64,000 nt of DNA from an uncultured Myxococcales bacterium (lineage in GTDB: Bacteria > Myxococcota_A > UBA9042), in the NCBI GenBank assembly GCA_903840165.1, contig CAIMEY010000061.1:1-64000 (forward strand). Direction: 5' to 3'. This document shows, one piece after another, positions 44,245 through 51,818 of this stretch. Numbering within the stretch: position 1 is the stretch's first letter; each line of letters starts with the position of its first letter. The translations under genes and the position numbers were made by a program. Below the pieces are notes generated by a model. That model had not been told where the DNA came from, did not search any database, and saw only the letters and a program-made list of their open reading frames with translations.

Positions 44245-44338
44245 GCGCCTGTCGCGTTCCTTGACCACCCGTTGCCGCTCGCCCAGACCGGCGCAATGGG
44301 ACCCAAATCGCCTTGGGCATGTAGCCTTTGGCCGCGCC

Positions 44339-44367
44339 TTGACCCCACCGGCTCTGTCCCGGATACT
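44339..44367 (+). promoter_or_regulatory. Candidate promoter for the glycosidase-like lipoprotein gene
   Basis: TTGACC and GATACT are 17 nt apart, about 45 nt before ATG 44413. Confidence 0.33.
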
Positions 44368-44412
44368 GACGGCTGCCGGCCAGGGTTCAATGGCTTGGCC
44401 CAGGATTGCATC

Positions 44413-46515
44413 ATGGCTCGCACCCTTCGCCCGCTCCTGTTCGCGCCCGCTGAACTGTCGATGTTTCAAAAGAAATTCGGCCAGTTGGCCGTCGTCGCGC
44501 CGAAACTCGCAGCGGTAGCCCTTGCTGCTCTGGCGGTGACCAGCGGCTGTACGCAGGCCGAAACGGCAATCACATTACCTCAAAATTACAATACTTTGCG
44601 CAATCGATCGGTGAAGATCGACGCTGCGCAATGCCTCACGCTCAACGGCACCGCCACCGCGCCCGTGGCTTGCGCGGACATGACGATTGCCGCCAATGGC
44701 CTCAAAGCGGTCGGCTTGCGCGGCGGCAACGGCACCGACAAGACCGCGCTGTCCTTGGACGATGGCAGCAAATACCACAAGAACTTTGGCAACTTGAGCT
44801 GGTTCTGGCACCGCATTCCCGTCGGCTATGGCTGCGCGGTGAGCATGCAGGGCCTCTTTCCCGACCCGAGCAAGGACCCGACCGACGCCAATCAGTTTAA
44901 GTTCGACGCCTTAAGCGTGCTTATCAAGGCGGCCCATGACGCCGGCGGCTCCATTCTCTGGACCGCGGGCTATGACATTGGGGACGGCACTGGCAAGTGC
45001 AACTACCTCAACGGTGAACAAAAAGGCAATGGAATCGCCGATCCTGCCAAGTGGGCCAAGGCCGTCCGGACCGTGCTCAAGTACTATGACCGTACGCTTG
45101 CAGAATCGAGCAAAGCGATCTGCGACGCGGTGCCTACCGGTCAGGCCAAGCCCTACAACTGCGCCACCAACATCTTCAACGTTGAATTTATGCGCGATCC
45201 ATTCGGAGCCGGTGGCTTCGTTGACGCCCCCGACGGCCGCGCCAAGTGGCTCGCCGCCTACAAGCAGTTCGCAACGCAGATTCGCGATGAATTTAAGGAG
45301 CCTGGCAATGACGTAGCCATCGTTGGCCCTTCGGTGGTCATTCGCGGCGCGCTGCAGGTGGCCAACACGGCGGGCGCCAATCGTTCGCCCATCTTTGATT
45401 TTATTGACTATGTTGTCGCCACCAAGAACGACGACCCGACCTTTGGCTGCAAGCCCCTGACCAAGTGCCCGGCCAATGCCGCCAACGGTTGCTTCCCGGG
45501 AGAGGACCTGCCTTGCCCGACCCAGCTGCCGTTGACCTACTTGTCCTTTGAAATTGAAGCCGATTCGCCGCAAGAGGTTTATGACATCGTCAAGACCGTC
45601 GCCGACTACGCTTGGGCCCACGGCCTGCGGCATGAGAAGTATTTCGCGCCCTTGTATGGCAACGGCAAACTCACCCTGACCAACAAGGACGGCTCGGTGG
45701 TTGGGCATGTCTCCGATGGCAGCGAACCTATTCCGATTTTCATCACGGACTTGCGCATGGGAACGCCGCCTCTGCCGGCTGCGCTCAAGGCAGACCCGGT
45801 TCGCCTTTCGAATTATAAGGATGCCTTCTACGCCGCCTCCAAGATCCTGTTGCAGGGCCTGGTGATGCAGATGTCCTCGACCAACGGGCCCCGCTTTGCG
45901 ACCGTGGATGCCAGCAGCGTGACGGCCGAAGCGGCAGCGCAGACGGCCAAGGTCAGCGATGACTTCTGGTTCAATAACAGCAAACTAGGTGAAGATGGGA
46001 CCCTTTCGCCGGCTTCTTGGCATTCGTTCTGGTTTGCGCCCGGCTATGTTGAGAATCAGCAACTTATCGCGGTTGTGAATGGCCCAGACGCTTCCGGTTC
46101 TGGCAACGGCACCCCGGTTGTCGATTCCACCAAGGCAGGCGGCGGATTGGTGCTGATGGCCACCAAGGAAACCTGCGTGGATAAACAGCAATCGCCCATT
46201 GAGTGCATTCCATTGGCTGTCGGTCAGACGGTCAATGACAAGCCGGGGCAGCGGCGCATTCGCACGATCATCTCAGATTACAACGTGAATCTGGATTCTG
46301 ATCAGGTTGAACACGACTTGCGTGTGGACGTCGATCACATCGCCAAGGACGTCAAATCTGTGTATTATCGCTGGGCTTACTTTGATCCGACCTGGACCTT
46401 CTGGCCCGAGCCCAAGTTCCAAGACGAGGGCAAGCTCGATGCCGACCAGGGCAGCTTCCACATCACCAAGCCGGTGGCGGTACCTTCGGTCCAGTACTTC
46501 GAGTTTGTCTATTAA
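44413..46515 (+). CDS. Glycoside-hydrolase-like (GH39-type TIM barrel) lipoprotein
   Basis: ATG 44413, with AGGA 7 nt upstream, gives 700 residues; the track start at 44272 is 47 codons early, and ATG 44461 also gives a good signal. The signal ends VTSGC (Cys46). The mature protein has a barrel-like region (FGNLSWFWHRIPVGYG; IKAAHDAGGSILWTAGYDIG) with IFNVEFMRDPFGAGGF where GH39-type enzymes carry a WNEPD catalytic acid, and YLSFEIEADSP as a possible second Glu. It ends in a beta domain (LRVDVDHIAKDVKSVYYRWA). The family call is tentative because the canonical NEP is not present. Presumably it acts on polysaccharide outside the cell. Confidence 0.6.
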   Translation: MARTLRPLLFAPAELSMFQKKFGQLAVVAPKLAAVALAALAVTSGCTQAETAITLPQNYNTLRNRSVKIDAAQCLTLNGTATAPVACADMTIAANGLKAVGLRGGNGTDKTALSLDDGSKYHKNFGNLSWFWHRIPVGYGCAVSMQGLFPDPSKDPTDANQFKFDALSVLIKAAHDAGGSILWTAGYDIGDGTGKCNYLNGEQKGNGIADPAKWAKAVRTVLKYYDRTLAESSKAICDAVPTGQAKPYNCATNIFNVEFMRDPFGAGGFVDAPDGRAKWLAAYKQFATQIRDEFKEPGNDVAIVGPSVVIRGALQVANTAGANRSPIFDFIDYVVATKNDDPTFGCKPLTKCPANAANGCFPGEDLPCPTQLPLTYLSFEIEADSPQEVYDIVKTVADYAWAHGLRHEKYFAPLYGNGKLTLTNKDGSVVGHVSDGSEPIPIFITDLRMGTPPLPAALKADPVRLSNYKDAFYAASKILLQGLVMQMSSTNGPRFATVDASSVTAEAAAQTAKVSDDFWFNNSKLGEDGTLSPASWHSFWFAPGYVENQQLIAVVNGPDASGSGNGTPVVDSTKAGGGLVLMATKETCVDKQQSPIECIPLAVGQTVNDKPGQRRIRTIISDYNVNLDSDQVEHDLRVDVDHIAKDVKSVYYRWAYFDPTWTFWPEPKFQDEGKLDADQGSFHITKPVAVPSVQYFEFVY

Positions 46516-47106: not shown

Positions 47107-49617
47107 TCAATCCTCTGGCTTTTCCTGGTGTTTCCAGTCACCTGGCAGGGACGGCGCTTGCCATAGGTCCTGGAGCACCTCGGACGGAGGCGGCAAATCG
47201 TCCGCAGCGGAGGGCTGATCCGCCTCATCGTGCTCATCGTGAGCGCCCGCCGCACGAAATGCCGTTTCCTCGGCCTGACGAATCTTGCGGAACTGGTCTC
47301 CCGTGATCTTCTTGGCGCTGGCGCCGCCGGGATCGCCGAGCAAAGTCAACCAAACCAAGAAGTTAATCGGGTGAAAATGGGTCAGCACGCCATCCCACTT
47401 GCCGCCGGACTCAAAGCCAATGTGCTTGGCCACTTCTTCATTGAGCCAAGTGAAGGGCAATTGCCGCTTAATCTGCTCTGCAAACAAGCTGTTGCGCCAC
47501 CGTCCGCCCGAATCGTCGCGGAACAGGTCGGTTAGGTTCTTCTTGGCCGTGGGCCAGTCTTGACCTGCCGCGAGGACCTTGAACCAATCGACTTGGTCGC
47601 TCCACTCGCTGACGTGTCGGGTAATTGCCTTGCGAATTCGCGCCACAGCCGGGTTGGTGCGCGGGTCGTCGTTGTAGAACGATTGCACGTCCTCCGTCGC
47701 GATGTGGGCGTTTGTCAGCAGGAAATCCTTGTAGACGCGCGCCGAACGCGACGAGCGCTCGGGCAGAATCATCTGGATCAACTCATCGCAATCACACATC
47801 AAATCGTCGCCACTGTCGGTCCCTGGCTCAAACCAGTGGGCGCTGTGGGCCCCCAGCAAGTCCACGGCCCGACGCCAGCTTTCGTCGGCGAAGATCTCGA
47901 TGTGGACTAGGCTAAGTCTCTCGGCTTCTTCGCCAAATTCGCCAACCCTTCCGATACGTTCTCCAGGTGAAACGATGGTGTTGGCTTTGTCCGAAAAGCG
48001 CGCCACTTTGGCCGCCAACAAGGCCGCGGTATGTTCGCCGTGATCGAGAAAAGGCTGAAATTCCGCCTTACGCCGCTCAGCCGCCGATTCCTCGTCGCCA
48101 TCTTCGTCGTCGTCCGTCTTCTTTTGCCCAGGGACTTTGACCTTGGCCGCCGAGTCATCGCCCTTGGCGACCTTCTTCTTCTTGGGCAGCACCTTGGCCT
48201 TGCCGGTCTCAGGGTCAAGTTCCACTTTCTTTGCCTTGACTTCCTCGCCGTCCACCTTGGCTTGTTCTAGGGTGGTCGCGTCGCCCCGCAGCTTGCGCAG
48301 CCACTGTGGCGGCACGGCTAGCCCCTCGGCACCGCTTTGGTCGCCATGATCGCGCTTCCACTCTTCGTCGGTCACGTCACGGGTCGCGTCGAACTCGAGC
48401 ATGTGCATATACAGGGAATAAAAGCGGAAAACCTTCTTGTCGTCCTTAGGGTCAAAAGCGATCTCGTGCTTGAGCAGCACGAAATTGTTCGAACCCAGTG
48501 CCGGCGTTTCCGGACCGTTCTTGGCCACAACGACCCGCCCCGGAAACATCGCCAACACTGGCGCACCTTTAGGCAAATACAGGTGTATTCCGCCATGCCA
48601 CTGCCCGGAGAGGCCCACCGGATAGTAGCCGCCGGCTTCATTCTTCTCGGTATTGCGGCAGTAGGTTTCCGCCAATTCCTTGATATTCTCAGGTGATGCC
48701 ACATTAGCGATGGTCTTTGCTTTATGCTGCTTGTCGTCAAACTCCAAGGCCACCGGAAATGAATTGTGCTTGCGAGTCAGATGGTTCTGCAGCAGCACCC
48801 AGTCCATGCCCGGACCCGGGTCAAACTTGCGGGCCGTGATGTGGTAGTGGCCATAAATCCCAATCTTTTCAAGGTCTGGCTCGACCAGCGACCAAATCGG
48901 CTTGCTGTTCTCATCCATCGGCACCCGCAACTGCAGCTTGGGAAAGCGGCTGTGCAGGGTAAACATCAGTTGTGCCAAGGCCTTATACTGTGCCTCGGTA
49001 TAGCCGATGGAGCGCCATTGCTGATCGTGGATGGTCTGGGCAATGACCGGCCTTTCCCCACGACTTCCAGCAGGTTGGCCGTTGTCGTTGGGCCCGAGCT
49101 GCGGCAACATGCAGTTCATGTCGATGCCGATGGTGTAGGTGTTGGCGTCTTGCAACACTTCTGACCCACCGCCATGGAGCGTTTTCATCACAGGATCAGC
49201 GCCTTGATAGATAACGCCGTTCCAATCGACCATGAAATGCGTCGAGAAGCCGCGCTGCAGCAGGACGCGAAAGCAGCCGGCGGCATCGGCGGTCATATCA
49301 GCATGAATAATGACGCCTTTGACCACGTCCGCTAGCTCGGCGCAGGTCAGCATCTGCTTGCCCTTGACGTCGCGGGGCAGGACATAGCGCCCATCGGCCG
49401 ACTGGGCCCCGCCTGTATGTGCTTGAAAATCCCAGGCTTTATTGTCACGAAAGTTGACGATCCAGGTGTCCTCGACCGTGACTTCCTGGCCCTCAATTAG
49501 GATGAAGTTCTTGGCATCCGCTGGAATCGACTCGTCTTTGACCGCAACACGGGCGTTGCTAGCCGGTTGAGCCCCTGCGGTGGCGGCCTGTGGTGCCGGT
49601 GAATTGCCCTGCTTCAT
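47107..49617 (-). CDS. N-acetylmuramoyl-L-alanine amidase (Amidase_2) fused to a degenerate M23-like domain
   Basis: 836 residues; ATG 49617 with AAGG upstream; no signal peptide. The amidase part (about 95-275) has VIIHADMT (His105), a second ligand in IYGHYHI (His257), and KFDPGPGMDW (Lys264, Asp266), the AmpD/AmiD pattern of zinc amidases, and so is probably active. It should cleave the muramic acid-peptide bond. A second part (about 335-410 and 545-575) resembles M23 endopeptidases (GQWHGGIHLYLPKGAPVLAM; VSPGERIGRVGEFG; LVHIEIFAD). The first-ligand HxxxD is HGGIH, and HxH is reduced to one His. The two M23-like halves are split by a Lys/Glu-rich insertion. A C-terminal helical domain (about 590-836) is unknown. 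It lies 18 nt after the VWA gene. Confidence 0.8.
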   Translation of the reverse strand: MKQGNSPAPQAATAGAQPASNARVAVKDESIPADAKNFILIEGQEVTVEDTWIVNFRDNKAWDFQAHTGGAQSADGRYVLPRDVKGKQMLTCAELADVVKGVIIHADMTADAAGCFRVLLQRGFSTHFMVDWNGVIYQGADPVMKTLHGGGSEVLQDANTYTIGIDMNCMLPQLGPNDNGQPAGSRGERPVIAQTIHDQQWRSIGYTEAQYKALAQLMFTLHSRFPKLQLRVPMDENSKPIWSLVEPDLEKIGIYGHYHITARKFDPGPGMDWVLLQNHLTRKHNSFPVALEFDDKQHKAKTIANVASPENIKELAETYCRNTEKNEAGGYYPVGLSGQWHGGIHLYLPKGAPVLAMFPGRVVVAKNGPETPALGSNNFVLLKHEIAFDPKDDKKVFRFYSLYMHMLEFDATRDVTDEEWKRDHGDQSGAEGLAVPPQWLRKLRGDATTLEQAKVDGEEVKAKKVELDPETGKAKVLPKKKKVAKGDDSAAKVKVPGQKKTDDDEDGDEESAAERRKAEFQPFLDHGEHTAALLAAKVARFSDKANTIVSPGERIGRVGEFGEEAERLSLVHIEIFADESWRRAVDLLGAHSAHWFEPGTDSGDDLMCDCDELIQMILPERSSRSARVYKDFLLTNAHIATEDVQSFYNDDPRTNPAVARIRKAITRHVSEWSDQVDWFKVLAAGQDWPTAKKNLTDLFRDDSGGRWRNSLFAEQIKRQLPFTWLNEEVAKHIGFESGGKWDGVLTHFHPINFLVWLTLLGDPGGASAKKITGDQFRKIRQAEETAFRAAGAHDEHDEADQPSAADDLPPPSEVLQDLWQAPSLPGDWKHQEKPED

Positions 49618-49635
49618 TGGCCAACCTTGTTGACG

Positions 49636-51333
49636 TTACTTGCGAAACAGCTTGCGGATCAGCAGCACCAGGATCAGCAGCGCCACTAGGCCTGCCAGCA
49701 CTAGCACGCCGATGCCGACGGCGACATACAGCTTATACCCAAGCATTTCTTGGAGTTTTACGGCATTATGGCGCACGAGCTGTTCTAGCGATTGCCGCCA
49801 CGTGGGCTCAACCGGCCGCGTCGCGTAGATGGGCGGCGTCGTTAGCAATTCGCCTCGACCCAGCCGCGGTTCGATGTCCACGGCGAGCTTTACGGCGTAT
49901 TCTGGGTCCGCGTACTCCTCTTTGTGCGTGTATTCAATGGCAATTTGCCCTGTGACTTCGGCCATCGTTCGGCCCATGGCCTCGGCCAAGTGGTCTTCGT
50001 CCTGGGCCAGCCGATAGGTGCCCCCTGTACGCTCGGAAAGCAGGCGAATTCGTTCTAGTTCATAGTCCTTGCCCAAGGGCGCAATGCCGACGCCGAACGC
50101 GCGTACCCCAGCCGCCCGCGCCACGCCAATCCAGTGGCGCGCCTTGTCGCGGAACTGGGACTGCTGGGTCGCAATGCGACGCGCTAAGAAATCCGCCATG
50201 CAAGAACGAAATTTCTCCTTTGATTTTCCATCATTCCAGCTTGCGCACTCCTTGGGAGGTACCGTCTGACAGAGTTGCAGATCCTGCACGTAGCCGTCGC
50301 GGCCATCGCTCAGGAGCACGAGCGCTCGCTCATGGCCGCTCGGGCTATCCGCGACCAGGATGCGCAGCGCCTCGTCCATGGCAGATGTCTCGAAATCGAT
50401 CGCGTCGTTCTTGGCGCGCCGACTCTCGTACTCTTCCAGTTTGCTTTGGTAATCTGCGGAGTTGAACACCGCAAAACCGTCCAAGGCTCCCGGCGGTACG
50501 GTGCAATAACGGGCAGCACTGTAAAAAGGCAGACCTAGGTTGAACAGGCGGGGAAAAGATCCGCTAAACTGTTGAATCTTTGTGGCTTTTGCCAACGTAC
50601 CCACGTCGGTCGTCAGGCCGCACAAGTCGGTCCCGACCGGCGGCACCGGCGCGTCCTTGGCGGGAGGACCGGCCAGGGTCAACGGATCGTCCGAGAGGGC
50701 TTGCTGCCGCGCAGGAATGCAATCGCGACGCGTCCGCTCAATATCCTGCAACTGGCTGCTTTTATTCTTTAAGGCCGTGAACTGAAACAGTCGATCGTTG
50801 TACCAAATCAGGTTCACCCGCTCAGCTGCGCTCAGTGGCTTGAGGGCCGCCGCCACGGCTTCCTTGATACGGTCCTGCGTAGAGTCGCCAATGCCCCCGG
50901 AAATCCCCTCAGCCACCAAGACAATGTCGACAATAACACCTGTTTTATCGCGGAGTTTAAGCTTTGCATCCTTGCGATCGCCCTGGGCCTTGCCCATGTC
51001 AAAAGCGACAAAGCCTGGATTGGTCTTGCTGGCTCCAGCCGATTTTTTCCCATCCAATACATGGAGTTTGCGGATAGCATCTAAGGGCACCGGCCGACCC
51101 AGCTTGTCCAGCACCGTCGCTAGGATCTGCACCTTGGGCCAAAGGCTCACATCGAGGCGATCAATGCGAACCTGCGGAAGTTCCAGTGGATCTTGGGCGA
51201 CAGGTGCCGCCTCGACCACTTTGGCCTTGGTTCCCGCACCATCGGCAACCGCGGCGACGGCTAGGCCGACGCAGGCTGACACCAACCAAGCGAATCGCTG
51301 CGACGGACGGCGAGGAAAAACGGCTTGAATCAT
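49636..51333 (-). CDS. Exported VWA-like protein with degenerate MIDAS and C-terminal membrane helix
   Basis: 565 residues from ATG 51333. A signal-like N-terminus (FAWLVSACVGLAVAAVADG) is followed by a beta domain, then a VWA-like fold (DIVLVAEGISGGIGDSTQDR; ALVLLSDGRDGYV). The usual MIDAS DxSxS is EGISG here, so metal binding may be weak or lost. Residues about 390-430 include GVRAFGVGIAPLGKDYELER. A helix near the C-terminus (LYVAVGIGVLVLAGLVALLILVLLI) ends in a basic tail (RKLFRK), giving an outside-in anchor. Its start overlaps the Tat-gene stop by 4 nt, and the amidase gene follows after 18 nt, so the three act together, perhaps on peptidoglycan; this is inference. Confidence 0.75.
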   Translation of the reverse strand: MIQAVFPRRPSQRFAWLVSACVGLAVAAVADGAGTKAKVVEAAPVAQDPLELPQVRIDRLDVSLWPKVQILATVLDKLGRPVPLDAIRKLHVLDGKKSAGASKTNPGFVAFDMGKAQGDRKDAKLKLRDKTGVIVDIVLVAEGISGGIGDSTQDRIKEAVAAALKPLSAAERVNLIWYNDRLFQFTALKNKSSQLQDIERTRRDCIPARQQALSDDPLTLAGPPAKDAPVPPVGTDLCGLTTDVGTLAKATKIQQFSGSFPRLFNLGLPFYSAARYCTVPPGALDGFAVFNSADYQSKLEEYESRRAKNDAIDFETSAMDEALRILVADSPSGHERALVLLSDGRDGYVQDLQLCQTVPPKECASWNDGKSKEKFRSCMADFLARRIATQQSQFRDKARHWIGVARAAGVRAFGVGIAPLGKDYELERIRLLSERTGGTYRLAQDEDHLAEAMGRTMAEVTGQIAIEYTHKEEYADPEYAVKLAVDIEPRLGRGELLTTPPIYATRPVEPTWRQSLEQLVRHNAVKLQEMLGYKLYVAVGIGVLVLAGLVALLILVLLIRKLFRK

Positions 51334-51818
51334 GCGCTGAACCGCATATGTCGCACGCGGTAACCGCCCACGTCTTGGCGAGCCGCCACGGCCCCGTCGG
51401 GGTCAAAAAGGCGCAGTTCGACGCCATAGGTTCCTACGACCAAATCATGATGCGGATAGGGGGTTTCCAAATCGACCTGACCGTCGCCAAAGATCGCGTG
51501 CCGTTCGACGACAAACCAAGGCTGACCCGGCGCATCGACATGGCATACCGCGCAAGCTAGGTAGGCACCGAGGGGGGCCTGTTCAAACGCGACGCGCAGA
51601 GGGGCTCCGGGAAAGGAGGCCGTCCCAGAAACCTGCATTGTTGCAGTAGCTTCTGCAGCGCTATTGGCCCCTTTCGGCGCGCTGCCGCTAAGTGCCACCG
51701 GGATGGCTGCCCCGCCAGCCGAGACTGGTGGTTGGGCGGTTGCGGGCCGACACCATGACGCCACAGCGACAAGGGCCCCTGAATTTGCACAGATTTGTAG
51801 GAAAGTCCGGCGCTCCAT
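51330..51818 (-). CDS. Small Tat-exported protein, unknown function
   Basis: 162 residues from ATG 51818. The twin-arginine signal is clear: MERRTFLQICANSGALVAVAS, with RRTFLQ, then a cleavage region near ATAQPP. The mature part is a small beta domain (MQVSGTASFPGAPLRVAFEQ; VVGTYGVELRLFDPDGAVAA) with a Cys-x-x-Cys-like pair (ACAVCHVD). Tat export suggests folding or cofactor binding before transport. No family recognised. The start codon has no Shine-Dalgarno and lies 6 nt from a promoter -10 candidate, consistent with a leaderless transcript. Overlaps the VWA gene by 4 nt. Confidence 0.72.
   Translation of the reverse strand: MERRTFLQICANSGALVAVASWCRPATAQPPVSAGGAAIPVALSGSAPKGANSAAEATATMQVSGTASFPGAPLRVAFEQAPLGAYLACAVCHVDAPGQPWFVVERHAIFGDGQVDLETPYPHHDLVVGTYGVELRLFDPDGAVAARQDVGGYRVRHMRFSA

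Follow-up and report, generated by a model that had tools for sequence, protein, structure and literature searches.

A conserved operon of a small Tat protein, a VWA-like protein and a WHIX amidase in Myxococcota that co-occurs with an eCIS-type contractile system

What does a peptidoglycan amidase do in an operon with a small Tat-signal protein and a VWA-like membrane protein? This question is raised by three co-oriented minus-strand genes in the window, i.e., the whole 64,000-nucleotide stretch (positions 1 to 64,000 of contig CAIMEY010000061.1) analyzed here from an uncultured Myxococcales bacterium. The host MAG has a size of 5.7 Mb and is 93% complete. A previous sequence-only reading described the three genes as a tight operon and proposed a wall-remodeling unit. 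The spacing on which it relied is confirmed by the ORF coordinates: genes 1 and 2 overlap by 4 nt (ATGA), and the start of the amidase gene is separated from the stop of the VWA gene by 18 nt. The locus contains the following features.

51330 to 51818, minus strand: gene 1, small Tat-signal protein of 162 aa, predicted beta-sandwich with a free C-terminal tail; proposed carrier
51798 to 51812, minus strand: twin-arginine motif RRTFL, gene 1 residues 3 to 7; both arginines invariant in 32/32 homologues
51333 to 51344, minus strand: C-terminal tail RFSA of gene 1; F-[SG]-x ending, as in WHIX-associated VgrG/PAAR-like carriers
49636 to 51333, minus strand: gene 2, VWA-like protein of 565 aa with signal peptide, VWA-like domain, one C-terminal TM segment and a short basic cytoplasmic tail
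50896 to 50910, minus strand: EGISG in the place of the MIDAS DxSxS, gene 2 residues 142 to 146; motif loss family-wide
49657 to 49731, minus strand: C-terminal transmembrane segment of gene 2, residues 535 to 559
47107 to 49617, minus strand: gene 3, signal-less amidase of 836 aa, composed of an Amidase_2/AmpD-like domain and a WHIX domain
48811 to 49323, minus strand: Amidase_2 domain, gene 3 residues 99 to 269; invariant metal-site residues H105, H257/H259 and D266
47353 to 48765, minus strand: WHIX domain, both regions, gene 3 residues 285 to 755; low-confidence charged linker (449 to 518) between the regions
48583 to 48600, minus strand: WHGGIH, gene 3 residues 340 to 345, the WHxxxH signature of WHIX region 1
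47602 to 47616, minus strand: HVSEW, conserved in WHIX region 2; compare H/F-x-x-EW in T6SS WHIX effectors
47365 to 47379, minus strand: HFHPI, conserved in WHIX region 2

The plus strand of the window carries, at positions 44272 to 46515, a 747-aa ORF whose N-terminal region is lipoprotein-like and which matches no Pfam family.

Among 53 relatives, the VWA protein was matched in 41 and the amidase in 43. The gene order was compared in 40 loci at the class level and in 20 from other families of the phylum. Within the class, the small RR gene is positioned upstream of the VWA gene in all 34 loci with enough upstream sequence, and the amidase gene follows within about 100 nt downstream in 33 of the 36 loci containing VWA; one genus accounts for three loci in which two extra genes or a contig end break the order. 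Outside the class, the amidase gene lies directly downstream of the VWA gene in 19/20 loci, and an RR gene lies upstream in 19/20. In most of the window's family, the trio is flanked by dnaK-dnaJ-thiL and coaD, and other genes flank it in other lineages. The order of the trio is kept while the flanks change. The three genes form a portable unit under selection, present in 67 of the 284 phylum genomes sampled. The sequence-only reading had proposed a search for the three genes in relatives; with the trio found across the phylum, the objection that they do not co-occur falls away, and the claim of a conserved set of three genes, so far undescribed and centered on a peptidoglycan amidase, is borne out. 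The two additional genes between VWA and amidase in the one genus (L097:7825-11103, L101:5741-8985) are a 362-aa antisense gene and a gene for a membrane protein of roughly 700 aa that looks sulfatase/LTA-synthase-like.

The gene 1 product begins with MERRTFL; the invariant R3 and R4 are followed by a hydrophobic stretch. Pfam TAT_signal was matched weakly by 13/32 homologues. TatC was found in the window's own genome and in 49/53 relatives; the four in which it was not found are all incomplete MAGs, and three of them (G022, G026, and G027) nevertheless have an identified RR small protein. The AlphaFold model of the small protein showed a confident beta-sandwich at residues 60 to 155 (block pLDDT of about 88 to 97) and a C-terminal end of lower confidence past the last strand. 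A Foldseek search against the PDB gave weak beta-sandwich matches for this protein, with a best E value of 0.001 and none below. Assignment as a PKD domain was rejected (12.9 bits, cut-off 23.5).

The gene 2 product has an N-terminal hydrophobic signal (residues 14 to 30). The window protein itself has no Pfam VWA match, 10/35 of its homologues match PF00092 weakly, and two homologues from the phylum exceed the Pfam VWA cut-off (27.5 and 26.8 versus 23.8 bits). The intact MIDAS DxSxS is absent; EGISG is found here, and AGYQ-, PGHQ- or AxHAE-type sequences are found elsewhere in the family. The sequence-only reading was right that the MIDAS is degenerate, and the degeneracy is family-wide, but it says nothing about the mode of binding, which was suggested to differ. 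The family keeps the DG motif (D343 and G344, invariant). Four cysteines are conserved in at least 90% of the family, which fits a periplasmic domain. VWA homologues of other families carry FHA (48 to 52 bits) and/or double zinc-ribbon modules behind the TM segment.

Pfam Amidase_2 was matched by the gene 3 product with 41.7 bits (cut-off 26) and by 33/33 family members. The nearest solved structure was AmpD, which provided the top Foldseek matches; DipM and EnvC were matched at weak scores. No signal peptide was found on the window amidase or on any homologue checked, as judged from the position of the start at the VWA stop and from the low N-terminal hydrophobicity (median maximum of 0.8; the two other unit proteins have 1.8 and 2.4). 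The label of wall hydrolase in the sequence-only reading suggests a secreted protein and needs correcting on this point. Five genomes (G029, G032, G036, G040, and G043) encode extra Amidase_2-only paralogues on other contigs. Amidase_2 homologues from Planctomycetota, Verrucomicrobiota and others (L146 to L199) match only about residues 94 to 273, and the match stops short of the WHIX region. A conserved tryptophan motif (PGEW/QGEW-x) is present near the C terminus of the window amidase (positions 47110 to 47160) and of most homologues.

Analysis of the C-terminal half of gene 3 gave a marginal Pfam Peptidase_M23 match (28.9 versus 28.7 bits). A tblastn search with the amidase led to an M23-annotated effector encoded beside vgrG on the Pantoea plasmid pEA320; this effector and its relatives are WHIX proteins. 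WHIX is a bipartite domain named after WHxxxH and published as a T6SS loading domain (PMC12135965). Alignment of the amidase family with 16 T6SS WHIX proteins by hhalign covered residues 285 to 755 with a probability of 99.9 and an E value of 6.5e-34, and no amidase long enough to cover the motif lacks WHxxxH. The M23 motifs are changed family-wide, HxxxD to HGGIH (D to H) and HxH to LVHIE (first H lost). By its sequence, the C-terminal half of the amidase is a WHIX domain; an ordinary M23 peptidase was rejected because the profile matches WHIX and both motifs are altered. The N-domain of TseP, reported as a Zn amidase (PMC11893102), appears from the spacing of H19 and H23 to be the same domain as WHIX. 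By analogy, the WHIX domain of the unit's amidase may be catalytic, instead of or besides docking.

The WHIX cavity is reported to cap the C terminus of VgrG, with binding requiring the 14 terminal VgrG residues (PMC12135965). Inspection of C termini revealed an F-[SG]-x ending in 42/52 small Tat proteins and a relaxed version of it in 51/52; some end otherwise, e.g., in LGS or AGA. The same ending was found in 8/11 carriers adjoining T6SS WHIX effectors (KFSFS twice, GFSE twice, TPFSG, TMFSG, and VFSD twice), the three others ending in LPLSD, SSSH and HSL, and in 0/34 VgrGs without a WHIX neighbor (26 from Myxococcota, 8 from plasmids). The signature is short, was first noticed in one family and was then compared post hoc, so the contrast of 8/11 versus 0/34 (Fisher p of about 8e-7) is to be read as uncorrected for relatedness and for the post hoc choice of pattern. 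The carriers checked represent about 8 clades, and 5/8 match at the clade level.

These features bear on the view that gene 3 encodes a cytoplasmic AmpD-like enzyme of muropeptide recycling that is merely cotranscribed with unrelated membrane proteins. The AmpD structural match and the lack of a signal peptide fit such an enzyme. The fused WHIX domain, the translational coupling and the conservation of the carrier tail would have no role in it, and the phylum-wide linkage to a Tat protein and a membrane VWA protein would be unexplained. We consider it very unlikely, since it fails to account for the linkage.

WHIX has been described as T6SS-specific (>98% of genomes), and the published set lists a single fusion to an AmpD-like amidase (PMC12135965), as would be expected if a T6SS delivered the amidase in the way published for WHIX proteins. 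VipB, however, was not found in the window's own genome or in its whole family, and in the 284 genomes it is unrelated to the unit (10/67 genomes with the unit versus 31/217 others; odds ratio 1.05, p 0.85). No VgrG of TIGR01646 was found in the own genome. No VgrG, PAAR or Hcp was seen among the conserved neighbors in about 60 loci, where the flanking genes were partly scanned against families. Delivery by a T6SS is hardly credible; for this lineage it is refuted, barring a T6SS hidden in the 7% that the MAG lacks.

The unit is associated with another contractile system. The phage/eCIS-type sheath PF04984 was found in 64/67 genomes with the unit versus 70/217 others, counts that are uncorrected for phylogeny. 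The difference was seen within the class (40/42 with the unit versus 3/10 without) and outside it (24/25 versus 67/207). For the short-sheath type that occurs in the eCIS-type cluster, the counts are 58/67 genomes with the unit versus 4/217 others. The cluster encodes Pvc16_N, sheath, gp19 tube, CIS_tube/LysM, Phage_GPD hub and gp25 proteins. In two genomes that were read to the end of the cluster, the last genes encode an FHA protein and then a VWA-TM-FHA protein (L306/L307 in G003, L309/L310 in G026). These VWA-TM-FHA proteins are homologous to the VWA protein of the unit (E values of 3e-10 and 0.0075). The clusters of G003 and G026 include a pair of sheath genes, whose products have about 400 and 600 aa. 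In the loci read, the unit never adjoins the contractile cluster and lies on other contigs. None of the cluster's conserved genes, including those for the hub, tube and baseplate proteins, has the F-[SG]-x ending, and docking of the amidase on the cluster's spike via the same tail was rejected on this ground.

The main rival explanation is that the amidase is cytoplasmic cargo of the contractile system, loaded by WHIX on the spike and injected into other cells, with the Tat and VWA proteins serving in the periplasm for immunity or docking. So far, contractile (T6SS) effectors are the only proteins from which WHIX is known, WHIX effectors are usually adjoined by genes for signal-peptide immunity proteins (PMC12135965), and the unit co-occurs strongly with the eCIS-type system. 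Against this, the F-[SG]-x ending is carried by the small Tat protein and not by the hub, tube or baseplate of the cluster, the unit and the cluster are on different contigs, and effector/immunity pairs usually vary fast, whereas the unit is conserved phylum-wide. Targeting of immunity proteins by Tat instead of Sec would also be unusual. The cargo explanation appears unlikely.

The combination of a signal-less WHIX amidase with the tracking of a contractile system points to a Tat-carrier/hitchhiker pair that serves such a machine. The operon and its conservation, the WHIX homology, the common tail signature, the missing signal peptide and the association with contractile systems but not with the T6SS are observed; from them we infer tail docking, Tat hitchhiking, the role of the VWA protein and the purpose of the unit, and tentatively prefer an export-and-anchor module that would open the wall for a contractile machine. 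The amidase would fold in the cytoplasm, where its WHIX cavity would cap the small Tat protein's conserved F-[SG]-x tail, as in T6SS WHIX-VgrG pairs. The Tat translocon would then export the folded pair, the small protein as the signal-bearing carrier and the amidase as the hitchhiker. The pair has about 110 kDa, and Tat hitchhiking of signal-less partners is known up to 135 kDa (PaoABC) (PMC4273604). In the periplasm, the single-TM, MIDAS-less VWA-like protein would dock or gate the amidase at the inner membrane. In other families, the cytoplasmic FHA/zinc-ribbon part of the VWA protein could provide a link to threonine-phosphorylation signaling. Probably, the unit serves to open the wall of the producing cell itself so that the accompanying eCIS-type system can be assembled, fired or released.

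Another explanation is self-contained wall remodeling in shape, division or septal splitting, independent of the contractile system, with the VWA protein as an anchor and the WHIX/M23-like part as a regulator or second hydrolase. Degenerate LytM-type domains are known as amidase regulators (EnvC), and DipM and EnvC are the weak Foldseek matches mentioned above. The location beside the housekeeping genes dnaK-dnaJ-thiL and coaD in one family and the precedent of TseP-N as a WHIX-like Zn amidase (PMC11893102) also agree with remodeling. On the other hand, roughly three in four genomes of the phylum sample lack the unit (present in 67/284), which indicates that it is not essential for shape or division, and the tight link with one type of contractile system and the common carrier-tail signature are left unexplained. 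Such a role is improbable. Of the earlier wall-remodeling claim, the part that stands is a conserved unit built on a peptidoglycan amidase; a stand-alone remodeling unit in the ordinary sense is not supported. The amidase has no export signal and carries a WHIX docking domain, and the unit is linked to a contractile system.

Returning to the export-and-anchor module, a broader version of it is conceivable though doubtful: WHIX might be a general docking domain that reads C-terminal F-[SG]-x tails, reused by Myxococcota outside the T6SS to couple a wall amidase to a Tat-exported carrier, in an export-and-gate module (VWA, FHA) by which they open their own wall for an eCIS-type machine. If the proposal is true, a conserved, T6SS-independent WHIX operon shows the portability of the domain and of its tail signature, the Tat pathway gains a peptide-tail docking mechanism for hitchhikers, and there is a candidate answer to how eCIS-type machines cross the producer's own wall. 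Literature searches for a Tat/VWA/amidase unit in Myxococcota gave no match. The papers found to join contractile systems, Tat and amidases do not appear to deal with such a unit, and the literature that could be searched held no account of WHIX without a T6SS or of this domain combination.

Comparison with known systems revealed partial similarities. The WHIX T6SS effectors (Awe1; WP_014598246 of Pantoea pEA320; PMC12135965) resemble the unit's amidase in the bipartite domain, WHxxxH, the conserved second region, the fusion to a peptidoglycan hydrolase, the upstream carrier gene and the lack of a signal peptide, and most of their carriers checked share the F-[SG]-x tail. They differ in that the carrier candidate of the unit is a small Tat protein and not VgrG/PAAR, with the VWA gene in between, and in that the unit is a phylum-wide operon with an eCIS-type link in a genome without a T6SS. 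The N-domain of TseP from Aeromonas dhakensis (PMC11893102) has an H19/H23 spacing equal to that of WHxxxH in the unit's amidase; it is itself reported as a Zn-dependent amidase, whereas the WHIX domain of the unit is fused behind a separate Amidase_2 domain and has putative activity. AmpD/Amidase_2 proteins (PF01510) share the catalytic domain and the metal-site residues, but the unit's amidase is large, is fused to WHIX and shares its operon with the genes of the Tat and VWA proteins. In the Tat hitchhiker complexes HybOC and PaoABC (PMC4273604), a small signal-bearing and a large signal-less partner are likewise co-encoded; in contrast to them, binding in the unit would involve a C-terminal tail in the WHIX cavity, as inferred from sequence. 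The VWA-TM-FHA protein of the eCIS cluster (G003, L307:9810-11330) has the architecture of the unit's VWA family, to which it gave the hmm match with an E value of 3e-10, whereas the window VWA protein is without a cytoplasmic FHA module and its gene lies apart from the cluster. Taken singly, WHIX, Tat hitchhiking, Amidase_2 and VWA are known; it is their combination that appears new.
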